From Knoellia locipacati (GTDB taxonomy: Bacteria > Actinomycetota > Actinomycetes > Actinomycetales > Dermatophilaceae), in assembly GCF_007992835.1 (NCBI RefSeq), contig NZ_BKBA01000006.1, positions 1 through 64,000 of the forward strand: a stretch of 64,000 bases of DNA, in the 5' to 3' direction. Under the pieces are notes generated by a model. That model saw only the letters and a program-made list of their open reading frames with translations. It was not told where the DNA came from and did not search any database. This document shows, one piece after another, positions 47,807 to 60,267 of the stretch. Both the position numbers and the translations under genes were made by a program. The stretch's first letter is position 1. Each line of letters begins with the position of its first letter.

Positions 47807-47851
47807 TGGAGCCGGTGACGGGAATCGAACCCGCGTGTCCAGCTTGGGAAT
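47807..47851 (-). repeat. tRNA-Gly(CCC) 3' fragment, attachment site of the element
   Basis: On the minus strand the bases read: anticodon loop TTCCCAA (47850-47844), 3' anticodon stem GCTGG, a T arm with GGTTCGATTCC, acceptor 3' strand CACCGGC, discriminator T and CCA (47809-47807). Upstream of the loop there is no CCAGC to pair with GCTGG and no D arm, so the gene is cut at the anticodon loop. Elements that integrate into tRNA 3' ends leave exactly such a fragment at one end. It cannot make a tRNA. Confidence 0.88.
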
Positions 47852-48032: not shown

Positions 48033-48064
48033 TTCTTGGGAAAATCCCAAGAACAGGGTACGGT
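48033..48064 (+). promoter_or_regulatory. Operator palindrome and leaderless promoter of the XRE-ImmA gene
   Basis: TTCTTGGGA (48033-48041) and TCCCAAGAA (48045-48053) flank AAA, a perfect 21-base palindrome. TACGGT (48059-48064) is a -10 element seven bases before ATG 48072. The operator lies in the -35/-10 spacer, so a bound repressor would block its own promoter. Confidence 0.65.
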
Positions 48065-48071
48065 CTGGGTA

Positions 48072-49163
48072 ATGGATGAGGGGATTGGTAAGCGCGTAGC
48101 CGATTCGATGCCCGAAGGTCTGCGGCAGATGGAACTCGCTGCTCGTGTCGGGATGACGCCGGACGCCCTGTCTCGCGCACTAAGCGGAGGGCGTGCGTTC
48201 TCATCGATTGAGATCGCTCAGGTCGCAGAAGTGCTATCGGCCGACTTGCACTGGCTGATCACGGGTGAGCCTGACCCGCACCGGCTGCTGGTGGCCGCTC
48301 GGCACACGTTCGATGCCGACTCGAAGACGCGCTCAGTGCCCAGCTGGCCGAGGGACTCTGAGGTCCTTGAAGACATCGGGATGATCTACCGACAAGCAAC
48401 GGCTGCGATGGCGTCGTCGGAAGGTTCAACGCTTCCGACGTCTCCGGACGCGCTACGAACGGCTCTAGGTGAAGGTTTTGTTCGCCGGTTCGCTGATCTC
48501 CTCGAGGCGAATCTCGCAGTGGACGTGGTGCGTGTCGCCGGACTAACCACGGCCTACTCCTTCACGGTGAACCACCGAATGGTCATAGCCCTCCCGTCCA
48601 CGGGCAACTGGTTCTGGGAGAACTGGTCGATGGCCCACGAGTACTGTCACCTTGCGAAGGGCCACCACGAGGCGGGTATCGCCGACGAGGCGGAGGCGAA
48701 TGCCTTTGCTGCAGAGTTGCTTCTTCCAGCTGCCGCGATGAGGGAGATGGACTGGACGGAGGTCCAAGCCCCACAGCTTGCCACTCGGGTTTGGGACTGG
48801 GGCATATCGACGGATGCCCTTGCGAAGCGACTGCAGGCCCTGAACATCCCGCGGTCGCCTTTGGTCGATGGACTCCTCGGCAAGAAGACCCAGGCGCTGC
48901 TGCGTCACCACTGGAGGCAGCCTGAAACCGAGACAGGTGACGCCATCACACTTCGGATGGATGCTGCTGCCGCAAGGCGATTTCCCGTAACGGTCCAAGA
49001 TGCGCACTTGGCGTTGATCGCAGATGGGCGCACACCCAAGACAGGCCTAGCGTGGATGCTCGGTGTGCCAGCCGACGACCTCGATGTCGAAGTTCCAGTC
49101 CCCGAAACCGTTGCGGTTGAGGATCTATTGGCCGATCTGCGGACGTCACCGGAGGGCTCTTGA
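48072..49163 (+). CDS. XRE regulator fused to ImmA/IrrE-type metallopeptidase
   Basis: 363 residues. The N-terminal helix-turn-helix (about 15-60) has LRQMELAARVGMTPDALSRA. The C-terminal zinc peptidase has MAHEYCHLAKGHHE with HExxH at 189-193 and a likely third ligand in DEAEANAFAAELLLP. Such fusions are cI/ImmR-like switches of ICEs and antitoxins of type II systems; stress makes the peptidase remove the repressor. The next gene, a PIN-like protein, overlaps by four bases (TTGA). The position at the end of the element fits either maintenance or life-cycle control. Confidence 0.88.
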   Translation: MDEGIGKRVADSMPEGLRQMELAARVGMTPDALSRALSGGRAFSSIEIAQVAEVLSADLHWLITGEPDPHRLLVAARHTFDADSKTRSVPSWPRDSEVLEDIGMIYRQATAAMASSEGSTLPTSPDALRTALGEGFVRRFADLLEANLAVDVVRVAGLTTAYSFTVNHRMVIALPSTGNWFWENWSMAHEYCHLAKGHHEAGIADEAEANAFAAELLLPAAAMREMDWTEVQAPQLATRVWDWGISTDALAKRLQALNIPRSPLVDGLLGKKTQALLRHHWRQPETETGDAITLRMDAAAARRFPVTVQDAHLALIADGRTPKTGLAWMLGVPADDLDVEVPVPETVAVEDLLADLRTSPEGS

Positions 49164-49705
49164 GTCGGTTCTTCTTCGCCGACAACACGGTACTAGTTAA
49201 TTTTGGCATCCTGGATCGGCTTGAGCTCCTGGGGAAGTTACTCAATGACAAAGGGCGCTGGTGCGCGACCGTCGCTCAAGAATGTGACGCCTCCGCGGGG
49301 GTTGAAGGGCTGGGGGTTCTGGGGAAAGCCGGGGCAGTCTTCGGCGAGCCGGAACGACCAACGCCGGCGGAACTGATCGATACGCGGGTATTGCGCGATC
49401 GCATGGCTTCGCCAGGAGATCATCGGTTCGCCCATCTCGGCGAGGCGGAGACTGTGGCGATCATGACGCGTCGGTTTGCGACAAGCTACTTCGTAACCGA
49501 CGACGTAGGTGCAGCAACCATCGCCGCGGCCGAAGGTCTCAGAGTCCTGAACACCTGGGATCTGCTGCGTGCGTTAGTCCGCTCTGGTCTGTTGGCGCGC
49601 GAAGATCTTTGGACCGACCTCGAGGCGTTAACCAGCGCCGGCCGTGGCCGCCCTCCAGGTGTGTACGGCTACAAGTCATTCAGGACATGGGTCGACCCTG
49701 CTTAG
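49160..49705 (+). CDS. PIN-like nuclease domain protein, probable toxin partner
   Basis: 181 residues from TTG 49160 overlapping the XRE-ImmA stop. The first strand FFFADNTVLVNFGIL places a conserved Asp at 8. GEAETVAIM supplies the central Glu and FVTDDVGAATIAAAEGLRVL the later Asp pair, the layout of PIN/DUF3368-type RNases. The start cannot be later, because the Asp strand begins at once. With the upstream gene it forms a likely toxin-antitoxin pair that would stabilise the element. Confidence 0.75.
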   Translation: MSRFFFADNTVLVNFGILDRLELLGKLLNDKGRWCATVAQECDASAGVEGLGVLGKAGAVFGEPERPTPAELIDTRVLRDRMASPGDHRFAHLGEAETVAIMTRRFATSYFVTDDVGAATIAAAEGLRVLNTWDLLRALVRSGLLAREDLWTDLEALTSAGRGRPPGVYGYKSFRTWVDPA

Positions 49706-52871: not shown

Positions 52872-54221
52872 ATGAGCAACGGTAGTAGTGGTGTCTCTCG
52901 AGGAGACCGGAACCGGAACGCGAGGTTGACTCGGCTGCGGGCGGCGGTGCCGGTGGGCCATGCGATCGTCGGGATCGACCTGGCTGACCGCAAGCAGATG
53001 GTCGTGGTCACCGATCACGACTCGAAGGTGCTGGCGCGGCGCACGTTTCGGGTCAAGGCGTGGGACCTCGGGGCCGCCCTGGACTGGGCCGCCGAGCGGG
53101 CCGCGAAGGCCGGGTTCGAGGGGGCGACGGTGGCGTGCGAGCCGACCGGTCACCGGTGGCAGGTCCTGGGCCAGCTCGCCGCGGACCGCGGTATGCCGTT
53201 CGTGTGCGTGCAGCCCGCCGCGTCCGCGTATGCCCGACGCAGTGAGGACCTGACCTTGGACAAGACCGACGATAAGGACGCGGTCCTCATCGCCCGCCTG
53301 ACCGCGCAGCTGATCTGCTATCTGCCCGAGCCACTCGATGAGACCTGGGCCCGGCTGCGCCACCTTGGAGCCCGCCGCGAGCAGCTGATCGAGGAACACG
53401 TGGCGTGCGTGCAGCAGGTCCGTGACCTCCTTGAGTGCGTGTGGCCGGCCGTCCTTGACGCGGCGAAGCAGCCGTTCAAGTCGACCACGTGGGTCGCCGC
53501 ATTGACCGTCGTCGTTGGCCGCGACGGCGGGGACCTGTCCCGTACCCGACGCCTGGGGCCGGCCCGGTTCGAGGCCGCGGTGCGCCGCGAGGTCGCCCGC
53601 CGCGGCAAGGCCCGCCCCTGCCTGCGCATCGTGCACCGCCTGTTCATCGCGCTCACCGACCCCGCGGGGGTCAGCACCCAGCGAGTAGCGATCTTCGAAC
53701 GCATCGCGTGGGTCCTGCAGGACTGGGACCACGCCCGTTCGCGCCTGGTCGACGTCGAGGCACGGATGGTCACCGTCTTGGACCTGCTCGGCCTCACCGT
53801 CCTCGCCACCTCGATCGATGGGCTGTCCCCGGTCGGGGCCGCCGCGATCCTCGCCGAGACCGGCGACCTGACCCGGTTCACCTCCGCCCGCGCCGTGGTC
53901 AAGCACGCCGGCCTGGCACCCAGAGAACGCAAGTCCGGTGCCTTCACCGGACGTGCCCGCTTGTCCGGCGCCGGACGGCCACGGCTGCGCGTCGCCGCGT
54001 GGCGGGCAGTGTGGGGATGCCTGCAGACCAACCGCGTGTACGCCGCCCGCTACCGACACCTCACCACCCGCGAAAGCAACCGGCTCACCCCCACCCAGGC
54101 CCAGACCGCCGTCGCCGGCGCCATCCTGCGCCAGCTCCACTACGTCATCACCCACCAGCAAGCGTGGGACCCCGCGGTCGCCGCGCACGGCACCCGTCAA
54201 CTGGAGGTCGCTGCCGCATAG
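52872..54221 (+). CDS. IS110-family transposase
   Basis: 449 residues, longer than the usual 330-400. The N-terminal RuvC-like DEDD domain has D36 (VGIDLADRK), E90 (ACEPTGH), and D133/D136 (KTDDKDA). The C-terminal Transposase_20 domain has GLSPVGAAAILAETGD and LAPRERKSGAFTGRARLSGA with the candidate nucleophile Ser. The enzyme recombines donor and target guided by a bridge RNA. The frame is intact, so the copy may be active. High GC and a GTATGCCG word match the host rather than the surrounding cargo. Confidence 0.95.
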   Translation: MSNGSSGVSRGDRNRNARLTRLRAAVPVGHAIVGIDLADRKQMVVVTDHDSKVLARRTFRVKAWDLGAALDWAAERAAKAGFEGATVACEPTGHRWQVLGQLAADRGMPFVCVQPAASAYARRSEDLTLDKTDDKDAVLIARLTAQLICYLPEPLDETWARLRHLGARREQLIEEHVACVQQVRDLLECVWPAVLDAAKQPFKSTTWVAALTVVVGRDGGDLSRTRRLGPARFEAAVRREVARRGKARPCLRIVHRLFIALTDPAGVSTQRVAIFERIAWVLQDWDHARSRLVDVEARMVTVLDLLGLTVLATSIDGLSPVGAAAILAETGDLTRFTSARAVVKHAGLAPRERKSGAFTGRARLSGAGRPRLRVAAWRAVWGCLQTNRVYAARYRHLTTRESNRLTPTQAQTAVAGAILRQLHYVITHQQAWDPAVAAHGTRQLEVAAA

Positions 54222-54650: not shown

Positions 54651-55202
54651 CTAGTACCCCACCATTTTCGCGACGAGTGCTACGAGGAACAACACCAGGG
54701 ATACGAACGTGTCACGGAAACTCACGTAGACCAGATTCTGAAGACGGACTCCGACGTGCTCATTCGCAACGACGACAGCGACCATCTCCTCCGCAGCGGA
54801 ACCGTCACGAACACTCGAGTGGCCGAGCACCTGCCGCTCCATCGGAGCTTGGACAAGACATGCCGCCACCGCGGCTGAGACCAAATACACGATAGAAGCG
54901 AAGAGCAAGCAGCGCGCGACAAGGCGGCTGTCTGTCTGCGTAGCGATCCCCGCCCCCACGATCGCGTCGGCAGCCAGGAGGGCAGCCGCTTTCGTTGCGA
55001 GCCCGTTGAGTCGGTCATTCTCGAACTGCCACAAGGCAATGGCCGCATTAATGTCGCTGTCGGCTGGCTGACTTCGTGGATCCCCAGCCGAAATGCCACT
55101 GGTCGACACACCATTCTTGGGTAATCCCTTATTGAGCAGCAGCGCGTGCCCGATTTGGGGTACGAGACGAAGCCGCAGGATCCATCGAGCGGTTCTGCCC
55201 AT
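54651..55202 (-). CDS. Membrane protein of the graspetide locus, unknown
   Basis: 183 residues from ATG 55202 (87 bases after the maturase stop). A helical segment FENDRLNGLATKAAALLAAD leads into the first membrane helix. A second (CLLFASIVYLVSAAVAACLV) and a C-terminal third (FVSLVLFLVALVAKMVGY) follow. The layout recalls small three-helix effector or SLATT-like proteins of defence systems, but could equally be an immunity or export protein for the peptide. Same strand and likely same operon as the RiPP genes. Confidence 0.55.
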   Translation of the reverse strand: MGRTARWILRLRLVPQIGHALLLNKGLPKNGVSTSGISAGDPRSQPADSDINAAIALWQFENDRLNGLATKAAALLAADAIVGAGIATQTDSRLVARCLLFASIVYLVSAAVAACLVQAPMERQVLGHSSVRDGSAAEEMVAVVVANEHVGVRLQNLVYVSFRDTFVSLVLFLVALVAKMVGY

Positions 55203-55288
55203 CGAACGGACGAACACGAGCGAGTACCGTCTCCACCTGCTGTTCCTCGCTTGGGGTGATGGCCGGCGAGGGCGCCGCAGTGGCTTTC

Positions 55289-56212
55289 TCACGAAGAGTC
55301 CCCGATGAGCCAATTCGCGATGGCATCGGCTACTCCGAGCTTCAAAGGCCGATCGGCAAAAGCGAACTCCCCAGCTTGGTTGCACTCAAGGAACCACCAG
55401 GTGCGGTCGTCGATTGCGAAGTCGAACGCACCGTAGGCGAGACCGAACGCGTTTATGTAGGCGCGGCATCCCTCGATGATGGGAGCCGGTGGGGTGCAGG
55501 GACTCCACCGGGCGTCCTTGGAGCCGAGGCGCCAGTCGGGACCATCCACTTGCGTACTTGCTGCAGCTGCGAACTCACCGACGATGAAGATGCGAACGTC
55601 CGTTCGGGGGTGGATCGACTGCTGAACGACGACGGGCTGCGAAGCCCAGTCCGCATCGCCCAAGGCGAGGGCATCGTTGAGCGGCGTCGTAAACATGAAC
55701 GCCGAGTTGGAGAACGGAAAGTAAGCCGATGCGACGGCTTTCACGATGCAGCTCCCCACTTCAGATTGGAGTAGTAGAGCGTCGGCACGGTTGTTCGTTA
55801 CCAACGTGCGCGGAACGGCAAGCCCAACTCGGCTCGCCACACGCAACTGGGCGAGCTTATTCTCGGCGCGACGTGAGGGCCAAAGCGGGTTCATCCAACG
55901 GGTTGGTTCATATTCGGCCAGGTCTGCTAGCCATGTCCGCCACTGCTCACGGGCGACGAGAAAGTCGTCTACCAAAGGGACCGACTGGGTGACAGTCGGT
56001 TCTGGAAGGAACTGTCGAAGCCAGACAGAACGGTAGTCAGCTGTGACAGGGCAGGCGTCCGGGCGCCACTGGATGTTCGGGCGGCCTTCGGTGTTCCACC
56101 GCTCGACCGCGACCCCGCGCTCGTTGATGCAGTTGATGACCGTGTCTGCGGCGAAATCGCGTTCGTTCGTGAGAATCAAGATGGGGCTTGCGAGCCCGTT
56201 GGCGTTGCTCAC
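55289..56212 (-). CDS. ATP-grasp ribosomal-peptide maturase (graspetide ligase)
   Basis: 307 residues, GTG start. It fits the MvdD/TgmB-like ATP-grasp group. It has an N-terminal preATP domain (PILILTNERDFAADTVINCI), RRAENKLAQLRVASRVGLAV followed by PRTLVTNN, a lysine-bearing CIVKAVASAYF, VVQQSIHPRTDVRIFIVGEF, and DFAIDDRTWWFLECNQAGEF with Mg-binding acids and Asn. Such enzymes join Ser/Thr or Lys side chains to Asp/Glu side chains of a precursor peptide, making macrocyclic esters or amides. The start overlaps the precursor stop as GTGA. Confidence 0.85.
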   Translation of the reverse strand: MSNANGLASPILILTNERDFAADTVINCINERGVAVERWNTEGRPNIQWRPDACPVTADYRSVWLRQFLPEPTVTQSVPLVDDFLVAREQWRTWLADLAEYEPTRWMNPLWPSRRAENKLAQLRVASRVGLAVPRTLVTNNRADALLLQSEVGSCIVKAVASAYFPFSNSAFMFTTPLNDALALGDADWASQPVVVQQSIHPRTDVRIFIVGEFAAAASTQVDGPDWRLGSKDARWSPCTPPAPIIEGCRAYINAFGLAYGAFDFAIDDRTWWFLECNQAGEFAFADRPLKLGVADAIANWLIGDSS

Positions 56213-56400
56213 TGACCTTTCTGATCCTCACCTGTCTCGAGATCGCACTTCTTCGTCTGGCTCACGCGCGTGGACTCGTAGCTCGGCATCCACGTGCCCG
56301 AGTCTGGGTCTTGGACGAACGTGATCTTCTGCTCGACGTCGTACCGAACAGGGACCGGGTCCGTCGCAGTACGGCTTGAAGACAATTTGCGGAGCAGCAT
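56209..56400 (-). CDS. Graspetide precursor peptide (putative ATP-grasp target RiPP)
   Basis: 63 residues from ATG 56400, with a purine-rich AAAGGGAAG upstream. The middle PVPVRYDVEQKITFVQDPDS and a Gly-Thr-Trp-Met-Pro turn resemble the leader of the GRASP-target family (Y-D-x-x-x-Q...D...G pattern). The C-terminal third is loaded with donors and acceptors: Ser, Thr and two Lys, then Cys-Asp-Leu-Glu-Thr-Gly-Glu-Asp. Such a spacing of hydroxyl or amine and carboxyl side chains is what the maturase cross-links. Small size, overlap and order all support the pair. Confidence 0.7.
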   Translation of the reverse strand: MLLRKLSSSRTATDPVPVRYDVEQKITFVQDPDSGTWMPSYESTRVSQTKKCDLETGEDQKGQ

Positions 56401-57334: not shown

Positions 57335-57736
57335 ATGCGACTGCCCGTCGACGACGAGATCTACAACGTCAACGCAGTCTGGCTTGGCCCGCCGGGGCGC
57401 ACCCTGCCGTTTCGTGCGCGCTACGTCGCCTATGCCGTGGGGGCTGTGGTTTTCGTTCTCCTGCAGGGCATTGAGCGCCGTCTCGGCATTGGGCTTGGGT
57501 TCTTCGTTCTGGCCTACAGCCTCCTTGCCACCGCGGCGATCACCCGGGGCGTCCTCATGCTCGTTGATCACGACCGTCCCGTCTCCTCCGCCCTACGGAC
57601 GCTGACCAACGAGATCAGCGCACCTCGGCGCGACCGACGCGTCCGGTGTGCCACATTCCGCCCGGCTCGGGTTCGAGCTGTCCCCTCTCGCCCGAGCCGG
57701 GTTCCCCGGCATGGCCGGACGGGGAGTTCAGCATGA
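57335..57736 (+). CDS. VirB3/PrgI-like membrane protein
   Basis: 133 residues. Two close hydrophobic helices (about 30-48 and 52-75, with GIERRLGIGLGF between) follow a short PVDDEIYNVNAVWLG start, as in PrgI/TcpE-type proteins that sit before the VirB4 ATPase gene. A basic Arg/Pro tail closes it. The stop overlaps the ATPase ATG (ATGA at 57733). Confidence 0.65.
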   Translation: MRLPVDDEIYNVNAVWLGPPGRTLPFRARYVAYAVGAVVFVLLQGIERRLGIGLGFFVLAYSLLATAAITRGVLMLVDHDRPVSSALRTLTNEISAPRRDRRVRCATFRPARVRAVPSRPSRVPRHGRTGSSA

Positions 57737-60267
57737 GCACGCGGGGATTGTTCCTGCGCCGGATCTCAGGTCACTGCACCGTGAGCTCCGACAAGATCTA
57801 CGCCTGGTATCGGCTGGCGCCGCAGGGGTGGTCCTTCCGACCCGACGGGATACGTGAGCAGCTGATTCGCGAGTCCGCGGATGCCCTTGCTCAGTTGGCC
57901 AAACGGAACCTCCATCTGAGGGTGACAACCCGGCCGTACCCGGTGAGCCGCTGGGCGCGGGCACACGACGCCAACGCGCCGGCCCCGCTGAACTGTTGGC
58001 GTGATCACTTGGTGACAGACCAGATGCACTTGGCGCGACGCAGCATGGCCGACAAGGAGGTGTATGTCGGGGTTGAGCTGCTCGGCTCGCGACGCATCCT
58101 GCACGCTCTCGGCAGCATGGCCCGACCGATGTACGACCGCGAGGTCGCGGCTCTCGGGAGGCCGGTCCGCGCCACCGACGAGATCATGGCGCTCTCTGGA
58201 ATGGCTGGCTCCCCTGCCTCCCCGCGTGAGCTCGAGTGGCTACTGCATCGGTCGGTCTCACTCGGCCTCCCGGCACCTTTGACGCTCGGAGCCGTGGACG
58301 ACGACACATGGGCCCGCGAGGACCTGGGGGAGTTCACCGACCAGGTCCTGTGGACGGCCAAGCCGTTCGGCAGGACCGTCACGGTCGAGGGCGATCTGAA
58401 CGGTCAACGGGTTGCTCGTCATGTCTGCGTGATGAGTGTCGGTCGGATGGCCGATCTCGAGATCCCTCCCGGGGTCCCGTGGATGCAGCGCACCGACCAG
58501 TTGCCGTTCCCAGTCGAGTGGTCGGCCCGCGTGAGGATCGAGGATCCCGCCAAAGTGGGCGCGGCGATGCGACGCAACATCCAGAAGATCCGGGCGCAGA
58601 AGGACCACTACGAGGTCGAACACCAAGAGCCTGCGCCGGGCGCACTCGACCGGCAGGCGTCCAAGGCGCTGACGGTGGAGGACGAGATCTCCATGGGCTT
58701 GTCAGGGCTCAGCACTCGGACCACGGGCTGGTACCGGCTGGCCGTCTCGGGCGAGACCGAGGAGGAAGCGATGGAGCGCGCCGGGGCTGTGCGCAAACTC
58801 TTCGCACCCCAGATCACGATCACTCGCCCTTGGGATCAGTACGCCATCGCGCGTGAGTTCATCCCGGGAGAGAAGCTGGCGAACACGGCATACAGACGGC
58901 GTATGCCGGTCACCACTTTGGCGGCCGCAGTCCCGGCCGCGACCGCGAAAGTGGGAGACCGAATCGGCATCCACTTGGGCGAGACTTCGGGCACGTCCGC
59001 ACGGGTGGTGACGTGGGAACCGTGGCTCTCGACCGAGCGGGATGAGGAGTCCGGGCTAGCCGTGATCTGCGCCGGCCTCGGTGGCGGCAAGTCCACGGCT
59101 GGCGGCAACATCATCTACCGCACTGTCCTGCAGGGCATTCCGTGGACCGTCTTGGACCCATCGGGGCGATTGACGGCGCTGTGCCACCTGCCGGAGCTCG
59201 CGTCGGTATCGAAGCCGGTGGACCTGCTCGATGCCGAGCCCGGTGCCCTGTCGCCCTACCGGGTGATCGCGGAGCCGCGCAGGGAGCACTTCGACTCGGA
59301 GAGCGAGTGGCAGCTGGGGAAGGCGACGGCTGAGAACACCCGACGCCTGCTCACGAGCAGCGTCCTGCGGTCGATCCTGCCGCGGCAGATGCAGGAACAC
59401 GTCCTCACGGAGGTGGCGCTCATGCGGGCCGTCGGTCAGGTGGCCGCGAGGCACACGTCCTCTGCGGGCGAAGTGGTCAAAGCGCTGCGCCACATCGGTG
59501 GTGACGACGAGCTGGTCCGACATGCCGGCTACATGCACGACTTCCTCAGTGAGGCCGCGCGAACGAGCCACGGCCGGCTGATCTTCCCGCCCGGCTACCA
59601 GTCGGACTATCGGGCGAGTGACGCTCTCCTCACGGTGTATTCGTTGCGCGGTCTTTCGCTCCCGGACGAAGACGCCAAAGGCTCGGAGGACCTCGACGAG
59701 CGGCTCAGCATGTGCGTCCTCTACATCGCGGCGTGGCTGGCGCAGCGCGGGATGTACTACGGCGATGTGCACGCCCGCAAGGGCATCTTCATCGACGAAG
59801 CCTGGGCACTGTCGTCCTTCTCCACCGGCCGCCGGTTCATTGAGCGGGCCGGGCGTGACTCGCGCAAACACAACACCCGAGTCATCATGGCGAGCCAGAA
59901 TCCGTCAGACCTCCTCAAGCTCGACCTCGCCAACCTCGTCTCGGCAGCCTTCATCGGTCGGTTGACAGGCGAGGACGCCCAGCGCGACGCCCTGCGGTTC
60001 ATCCCGGGTGCTCGTCCCGACGTGGGCTACGAGGCGATCTTCGAGTCGCTCTCCCGCCCGACCAGCCATGGTCACCGTGGCTCACGCGAGTTCGTGTTCA
60101 GCGACGGCGCCGGAGGGGTTGAGCGGATGCGCATGGACCTGTCGGCCCACCCTCAGTTGCTGGAGGCTCTCAACACCACTGCAGACCCGAACAAGGCGCG
60201 CGATCGTCTGGCTTCGGTCGAGCGCGCTGCATCGGGCGCCGTGGCCGAGGAGCGTGAGATCGCATGA
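57733..60267 (+). CDS. VirB4-type conjugation ATPase
   Basis: 844 residues from ATG 57733; an in-frame upstream codon at 57646 would extend it into the preceding gene and is not favoured. P-loop AGLGGGKST with K453 fits [AG]xxxxGK[ST]. Walker B GIFIDEAWAL has D688/E689. VIMASQNPSDLLKLDLANLV is the sensor/Q-containing motif of the VirB4/TraC/ConE group. It powers assembly of the type IV channel at the inner membrane. It contains an inverted pair of GTATGCCG words (58886-58908). Four-base overlap with the next gene. Confidence 0.9.
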   Translation: MSTRGLFLRRISGHCTVSSDKIYAWYRLAPQGWSFRPDGIREQLIRESADALAQLAKRNLHLRVTTRPYPVSRWARAHDANAPAPLNCWRDHLVTDQMHLARRSMADKEVYVGVELLGSRRILHALGSMARPMYDREVAALGRPVRATDEIMALSGMAGSPASPRELEWLLHRSVSLGLPAPLTLGAVDDDTWAREDLGEFTDQVLWTAKPFGRTVTVEGDLNGQRVARHVCVMSVGRMADLEIPPGVPWMQRTDQLPFPVEWSARVRIEDPAKVGAAMRRNIQKIRAQKDHYEVEHQEPAPGALDRQASKALTVEDEISMGLSGLSTRTTGWYRLAVSGETEEEAMERAGAVRKLFAPQITITRPWDQYAIAREFIPGEKLANTAYRRRMPVTTLAAAVPAATAKVGDRIGIHLGETSGTSARVVTWEPWLSTERDEESGLAVICAGLGGGKSTAGGNIIYRTVLQGIPWTVLDPSGRLTALCHLPELASVSKPVDLLDAEPGALSPYRVIAEPRREHFDSESEWQLGKATAENTRRLLTSSVLRSILPRQMQEHVLTEVALMRAVGQVAARHTSSAGEVVKALRHIGGDDELVRHAGYMHDFLSEAARTSHGRLIFPPGYQSDYRASDALLTVYSLRGLSLPDEDAKGSEDLDERLSMCVLYIAAWLAQRGMYYGDVHARKGIFIDEAWALSSFSTGRRFIERAGRDSRKHNTRVIMASQNPSDLLKLDLANLVSAAFIGRLTGEDAQRDALRFIPGARPDVGYEAIFESLSRPTSHGHRGSREFVFSDGAGGVERMRMDLSAHPQLLEALNTTADPNKARDRLASVERAASGAVAEEREIA
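58886..58908. repeat. Inverted pair of the GTATGCCG motif inside the VirB4 gene
   Basis: CGGCATAC (58886-58893) and GTATGCCG (58901-58908) flank 7 bases within codons for an Ala-Tyr-Arg-Arg-Arg-Met-Pro stretch. Confidence 0.6.

Follow-up and report, generated by a model that had tools for sequence, protein, structure and literature searches.

For most graspetides we know of no established role. In the TgmA/TgmB pairs of Streptomyces (TIGR04186/TIGR04187), a small precursor is encoded directly before an ATP-grasp ligase, and PMC13003496 describes fuscimiditide (ThfA/ThfB) as a characterised actinobacterial graspetide. The account given in PMC13097080 counts 24 earlier and 19 new graspetide groups, several of them with unnamed partner proteins. 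A second point of comparison is provided by the PycTM proteins of Pycsar, described in PMC11224242 as effectors that form pores once cyclic pyrimidines have activated them.

Here we analyse a stretch of 64,000 nucleotides from Knoellia locipacati (hereafter, the window) that contains a cassette of three genes, for a small peptide, an ATP-grasp ligase and a membrane protein. The cassette resembles TgmA/TgmB in that a small precursor directly precedes a ligase of the same lineage, but its precursor yields no TIGR04186 match, its ligase reaches half of the TIGR04187 cut-off and its tail is different; in the TgmAB locus of S. zaomyceticus, a methyltransferase gene stands in place of the membrane gene. 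With MvdC/MvdD of microviridin, the cassette shares the ATP-grasp lineage and the possible presence of Lys/Thr donors and Asp/Glu acceptors in the tail, whereas it has one ligase only, no TxxTxxDE-type tail and, in the three actinobacterial precursors, neither the PF nor the Phhx(1,2)h leader motif. The rosaritide and corallotide loci likewise have a conserved partner that is not a ligase, but according to PMC13097080 this role falls to a PPIase-like protein and to an oxygenase, not to a membrane protein.

No description of the cassette was found in the open papers searched: the main text of PMC13097080 contains no defense, phage, Rhizobium or Agrobacterium, and that of PMC8939145 (supplements apart) no KKAD, TKK, Nocardioides, Rhizobium, Xenorhabdus or Martelella. 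As far as these open papers go, the cassette suggests a kind of bacterial conflict system that has yet to be described. An open paper that pairs ATP-grasp with Pycsar (PMC11118758) deals with a different system.

The cassette, its ligase and the carrier element

The three genes are read on the minus strand, from position 56400 down to 54651, in the order peptide, ligase, membrane gene (Table 1), with GTGA overlaps at both junctions, the GTG start of the ligase overlapping the TGA stop of the peptide gene and the GTG of the membrane gene overlapping the TGA of the ligase. The initial annotation had called a 63-residue peptide gene overlapping the ligase and a three-helix membrane protein behind it; both are present, and homologous ligases elsewhere also have the small frame next to them. 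The same trio was found in two other actinobacterial genomes, at locus L025 of Nocardioides marmoriginsengisoli (ligase 64% identical) and at locus G136 of the window's family (57%). On one side the cassette is flanked by an IS110 transposase gene and on the other by the transfer genes of the carrier element (57059 onward). Because the DNA that the element shares, by blastn, with the fetched stretches of L025 and G136 is confined to the cassette (window ~54676-56349), we count the membrane gene as part of the unit.

Table 1 Positions of the cassette, of features of its carrier element and of precursors at related loci (window coordinates unless a locus is named)
Feature	Position	Strand	Remarks
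Left end repeat of the element	47808-47850	plus	43 bp; second, identical copy at contig C6 80691-80733
Transposase of the IS110 family, next to the cassette	52872-54221	plus	
Three-helix membrane protein, possibly PycTM-like	54651-55292	minus	213 aa; ExxRx6K motif at residue 91
ATP-grasp peptide ligase of graspetide-synthetase lineage	55289-56212	minus	307 aa; TIGR04187 169.8 bits; 9bou 2e-38
Precursor peptide gene	56209-56400	minus	63 aa; ATG at 56400; stop TGA 56209-56211
Presumed core, codons of the 14-residue tail KKCDLETGEDQKGQ	56212-56253	minus	11/14 positions invariant, 10 precursors
AAA_10 ATPase of the transfer genes	57646-60267	plus	VirB4-like by our own naming
Repeat-type precursor	L189 2609-2983		
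Repeat-type precursor	L191 2457-2981		
Repeat-type precursor	L198 3288-3497		
Repeat-type precursor	L199 2626-2988		

The family that best matches the window ligase is TIGR04187 (8e-50; 169.8 bits against a curated cut-off of 350), followed by MvdC (9e-34, likewise below the curated cut-off) and the RimK family (4e-7). The L025 ligase scores 168.7 bits against the same cut-off of 350, and three reference ligases score 337.8, 368 and 415.8 bits, so that the first of these also falls below it. Among solved structures the nearest is 9bou (2e-38), named an MvdD-like pre-ATP grasp protein, with 5ig8 (9e-35), 7m4s (AMdnB, 1e-34), 7mgv (CdnC), 5ig9 and 7drm as further relatives. In the family profile search, no glutathione synthase model matched the window ligase up to E 1; for the L025 ligase, such a model gave E 0.04. 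Since TIGR04187 is the best family and the solved relatives are MvdD-like, AMdnB and CdnC, the objection that the maturase could be a glutathione-synthase-like enzyme fails, and the MvdD/TgmB-like call of the initial annotation stands: judged by these matches, the window ligase belongs to the MvdC/MvdD/TgmB lineage of ATP-grasp peptide ligases. Relatives are annotated as 'RimK-like protein' in the records and the RimK family does produce the above match, but a RimK-like enzyme acting on another substrate, with the peptide incidental, is highly improbable given the far better fit of the graspetide models, the purifying selection that acts on the peptide and the joint occurrence of peptide tail and ligase across phyla (see below). 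The K. locipacati genome also encodes a second, distant ATP-grasp ligase (L002, C4:85101-85829), 31% identical to the first.

Hallmarks of actinomycete integrative conjugative elements are an integrase, a RepSA replication initiator, an FtsK-type translocase and an att repeat in a tRNA gene, and the element that carries the cassette has all of these. It encodes a tyrosine integrase, RepSA, an FtsK-type gene and the AAA_10 ATPase, and the right copy of its 43-bp direct repeat (contig C6 80691-80733), beyond the window, lies inside tRNA-Gly(ccc); at ~47-80.6 kb of contig C6 (104,663 bases), third-position GC is below that of the surrounding chromosome. The element, 32.9 kb long, is an actinomycete-type integrative conjugative element that carries the cassette as cargo, in agreement with the conjugative setting first proposed for the locus. 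Between 47808 and contig C6 80733, pSAM2-like RepSA and FtsK occur together with the AAA_10 ATPase and an NlpC/P60 gene, a combination of plasmid-like with type IV-like transfer parts. A gene for an HTH and IrrE-like metallopeptidase protein (48036-49705; PADLOC RmrA, 5.7e-13), situated at the element's left end, is overlapped by a second gene, and the two may represent the regulator of the element or a further conflict pair.

The precursor and its near-invariant tail

A plasmid search with the L025 peptide resulted in one match (E 0.04), in Azospirillum lipoferum, located directly upstream of a ligase, and a plasmid search with the precursor of Rhizobium ruizarguesonis matched nine records, itself included. 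Seven of the nine were used, the two left out being Martelella-type records, and these seven proteobacterial precursors, together with those of the window, L025 and G136, make up a set of ten distinct precursors from Actinomycetota, Alphaproteobacteria and Gammaproteobacteria (Xenorhabdus bovienii). The C-terminus [ST]KKxD[LVM]ETGEDQKG[QE] is present in all ten, with 11 of the last 14 residues invariant, and the remainder of the peptides, leaders included, has diverged. The invariant residues include K, K, D, E, T, E, D and K, which are of donor and acceptor types, and the tail codons vary synonymously between precursors. The QKG residues may be held in part by translation, since the last residues cover the region before the ligase start; the conservation of KKxDxETGED appears to go beyond what this explanation would account for. 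The peptide as a whole is under purifying selection, with dN/dS values of 0.16, 0.24 and 0.42 among the window, L025 and G136, at synonymous sites near saturation. The core Cys, to which the initial annotation had drawn attention, is unconserved (C in the window and Xenorhabdus precursors, and A, N or Q in the other eight), and a role for this residue is not supported.

None of the three actinobacterial peptides (window, L025 and G136) matches TIGR04186 (TgmA) up to E 10; three TgmA-type control peptides score 33.9, 40.1 and 48.2 bits on this model (cut-off 25). The same three precursors lack the Phhx(1,2)h leader motif, which PMC8939145 places in about half of graspetide precursors and which is not obligatory for the class. 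A conserved precursor with donor and acceptor residues is nevertheless encoded beside the ligase, the arrangement by which the graspetide class is recognised. By these comparisons the locus is of graspetide type but outside the curated families, given a ligase at 170 bits against a cut-off of 350 and a peptide without a TgmA match. The ligase probably ties the tail into side-chain rings, a chemistry that we infer from the ligase family.

Two further kinds of precursor were seen beside ATP-grasp ligases. At the loci of the Streptomyces relatives (L026-L104), the precursors end in THFDD in 77 cases out of 79, and the one tested matches TIGR04186. A kinship of leaders between the cassette and these THFDD precursors was considered and rejected, the alignment falling in the expected place with a score of 9.7, below the maximum of 60 shuffles (12.6). 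Within the window's family, 58-residue peptides ending in SISGxDDGWDDCDE are encoded upstream of distant ATP-grasp ligases at four loci (L009, L011, L012 and L013) and constitute a putative separate graspetide group.

The membrane protein and a possible conflict function

A membrane gene follows the ligase in nine of the ten loci with the KK tail. In Martelella (L193) it is split over two frames and in Mesorhizobium (L196) it lies behind an IS66 insertion; in the fetched stretch of the tenth locus, that of Xenorhabdus (L195), no membrane gene was seen, and the ligase frame ends early, ahead of a transposase gene. At L197, in A. tumefaciens cl001, the membrane protein is kept and the front of the cassette has been lost beside a transposase. 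The order peptide, ligase, membrane gene is also kept in all four loci examined of a second type, in Agrobacterium sp. T29, Croceicoccus marinus, Sinorhizobium americanum and on a Pseudomonas aeruginosa plasmid, in which related ligases stand beside different precursors with TxTxxxxExDD-type repeats (read by eye; hereafter, repeat-type). A profile of the membrane gene, run against a set of loci that included those of the Streptomyces relatives (flanks of up to ~6 kb), matched only those of the window, L025 and G136. The membrane gene is the constant third member of the cassette.

The motif ExxRx6K is present in all 13 open membrane proteins, a set that includes L197 and leaves out L193, with its gene in two frames, and L195, where none was seen, and in 12 of them it adjoins the first predicted helix; before a helix, it occurs in none of 25 control membrane genes of the window's contig. 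These counts are descriptive because the motif was first noticed in these same proteins, some of which are near-copies. The AlphaFold model of the membrane protein is of too low confidence to be used (pLDDT 52) and consists of long helices only.

Profile comparisons hint at a weak likeness between the membrane proteins and PycTM. In the PADLOC scan, repeat-type proteins L199 (E 3e-5) and L198 (9.8e-5) match PycTM, with weaker values for L189 (0.036), L025 (0.19) and the window (0.33, sub-threshold) and no match up to E 1 for the remaining five of the ten proteins scanned (G136, L190, L194, L188 and L191, with three alphaproteobacterial proteins among them); the Pfam PycTM model (PF18967) does not match the window protein up to E 0.1. 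The window-type profile scores 27.7 against PycTM, compared with a maximum of 20.6 in 40 shuffles, and its helix part alone 26.1, compared with 17.4 for the maximum of 100 shuffles and 16.8 for the reversed profile. The repeat-type profile reaches 31.4 (shuffle maximum 20.6), and the alphaproteobacterial-type profile rises barely above shuffles (20.45 vs 19.6 with window-type, 21.4 vs 18.0 with PycTM). By hhalign, the window-type profile has low probabilities, about 16% at most, with 15% for PycTM, 7% for the repeat-type and 1% for the alphaproteobacterial type. Single PycTM sequences score 11.0-18.8, and two of the five exceed 15.0, the highest score among 25 control membrane proteins taken singly.

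Both the cassette protein and PycTM have three hydrophobic helices and, at the first of them, a TKAA stretch; further points of contact are the weak profile match and, for some copies, a position near defense genes. They differ in that the cassette protein has a long basic N-terminus and the ExxRx6K motif, which is absent from all five PycTM, and in that no cyclase was recognised among the adjoining genes scanned of the window, L025 and G136, several of which match no family. With the window protein below Pfam and PADLOC significance, the PycTM likeness is a lead, short of membership. An alternative, unlikely in our estimate, is that the membrane protein acts as a partner or scaffold needed by the ligase and is no effector at all. 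Graspetide synthesis that depends on a partner protein is on record for rosaritide (PMC13097080), and a membrane protein has been put forward as a scaffold for microviridin, but no domain suggesting such a role was recognised in the cassette protein and some of its relatives resemble PycTM.

Known or candidate defense or toxin-antitoxin genes are close by at 6 of 15 loci, a count made without a matched control and with the L188 stretch unannotated. The G136 cassette has a PDC-S35/TIR gene as neighbour, that of L025 has HipAB and lies ~4.5 kb from a tyrosine integrase, and L192 lies close to a SIR2 family gene; AbiE is found near L193, L194 and L197, which have one shared context, and L194 is also near LmuA of Lamassu (891 bits).

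We consider it quite possible, if a little short of probable, that the three genes form a mobile conflict module, with a PycTM-like membrane effector under the control of an intracellular ring peptide. The ligase would bind the precursor and link side chains of the tail into lactam or lactone rings, with K, K, T and K as candidate donors and D, E, E and D as candidate acceptors. The ring product would stay in or at the cell and have as its target the PycTM-like three-helix protein of the same cassette, which it would silence in the manner of an antitoxin or open on infection in the manner of a messenger; once freed, the membrane protein would damage the membrane, so that the cell would stop and the population or the carrying element would be protected. 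With no cyclase recognised beside the window, L025 and G136 copies, and with the ligase and the peptide as constant companions of the membrane gene, a ring peptide as ligand or antitoxin is the simplest joint reading.

According to a rival explanation, the locus is an ordinary graspetide cluster with an exported antimicrobial or signal as its product and with the membrane protein as exporter or self-immunity factor. PMC8939145 reports membrane proteins of unknown role from graspetide clusters 18 and 40, the scan of adjoining genes recognised neither a protease nor an ABC transporter, so that the membrane protein could fill in, and an SG doublet, a possible cleavage site, is present in two of the three actinobacterial precursors. 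We nonetheless regard export as somewhat unlikely, as none of these three precursors has a GG doublet, part of the membrane protein set matches pore effectors and the tail is nearly invariant across phyla, unlike what would be expected of arms-race products.

The initial annotation had left the choice between a transferable antimicrobial, signal or defense trait. The near-invariance of the tail argues against a fast-evolving antimicrobial, and defense, or maintenance of the element, would fit best; we hypothesize that the peptide gates the membrane protein in one of these roles. In a more specific form, which is possible but rather doubtful, a ring-forming ribosomal peptide replaces the cyclic nucleotide as ligand of the PycTM-like effector, giving a peptide-gated defense or addiction system with an almost fixed ligand of 14 residues, common to Actinomycetota and Proteobacteria and carried on a conjugative element and plasmids. 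Such gating would link the chemistry of ribosomal peptides with bacterial immunity, a setting in which Pycsar relies on cyclic nucleotides. With one near-invariant peptide, one ligase and one membrane protein, the system is small and defined, and its chemistry and role are directly testable.

Kinship and distribution of the cassette

Ligase trees were built from hand-chosen rows. In the tree without proteobacterial rows, the window clade (100/100) is placed beside the Streptomyces ligases of the THFDD type (89/87). In the tree with proteobacterial rows, eight KK-tail ligases group together (82/86) next to three repeat-type ligases (75/79), a placement that carries a long-branch warning; on rerunning, these values were 80/83 and 73/76, respectively. 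L140 is not among the rows of the second tree, nor are the ligases of L195, L196, L197 and L198, which are cut short; the third tree lacks L201 as well. A kinship of the window clade with the Streptomyces ligases was not rejected (p 0.229). The shared tail and the shared third gene favour a single origin of the KK-tail loci, of which the tree is no proof.

Close relatives of the window cassette were few in the genomes searched. In the 186 genomes of the family, close matches of the ligase and of the membrane protein came from the K. locipacati genome and G136 only; 11 further, weak membrane-protein matches had E from 7.6e-4 to 0.1, and one of them, L166, showed no likeness on inspection. The ligase had no further close match in 394 class and 396 order genomes (best other, 140 bits), the peptide matched its own genome only in the 396 order genomes, a draw to which G136 does not belong, and the membrane protein matched its own genome and one marginal 50-residue segment (9.7e-4) in 178 class genomes. 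A scan of genome contigs with patterns of the window ligase gave 427 relatives, of which the best 80 were kept, and would miss the proteobacterial branch. No relative of the window membrane protein was found in plasmids, none of the Rhizobium peptide in phages and none of the Xenorhabdus locus in E. coli, and viral contigs yielded nothing with the ligase, the membrane protein, one DNA pattern of the tail or the alphaproteobacterial ligase; the window ligase matched two distant phage records (30% and 26% identity).

The plasmid location of the proteobacterial members is no evidence of mobility because these were taken from a plasmid collection. One 246-kb plasmid record, CP070278.1, is listed under Dysgonomonadaceae bacterium and has nearly the same length and the same scores as NZ_CP066788.1, a plasmid of Martelella lutilitoris; both are from a cold seep, and the name Dysgonomonadaceae may stem from a mixed culture or from contamination.
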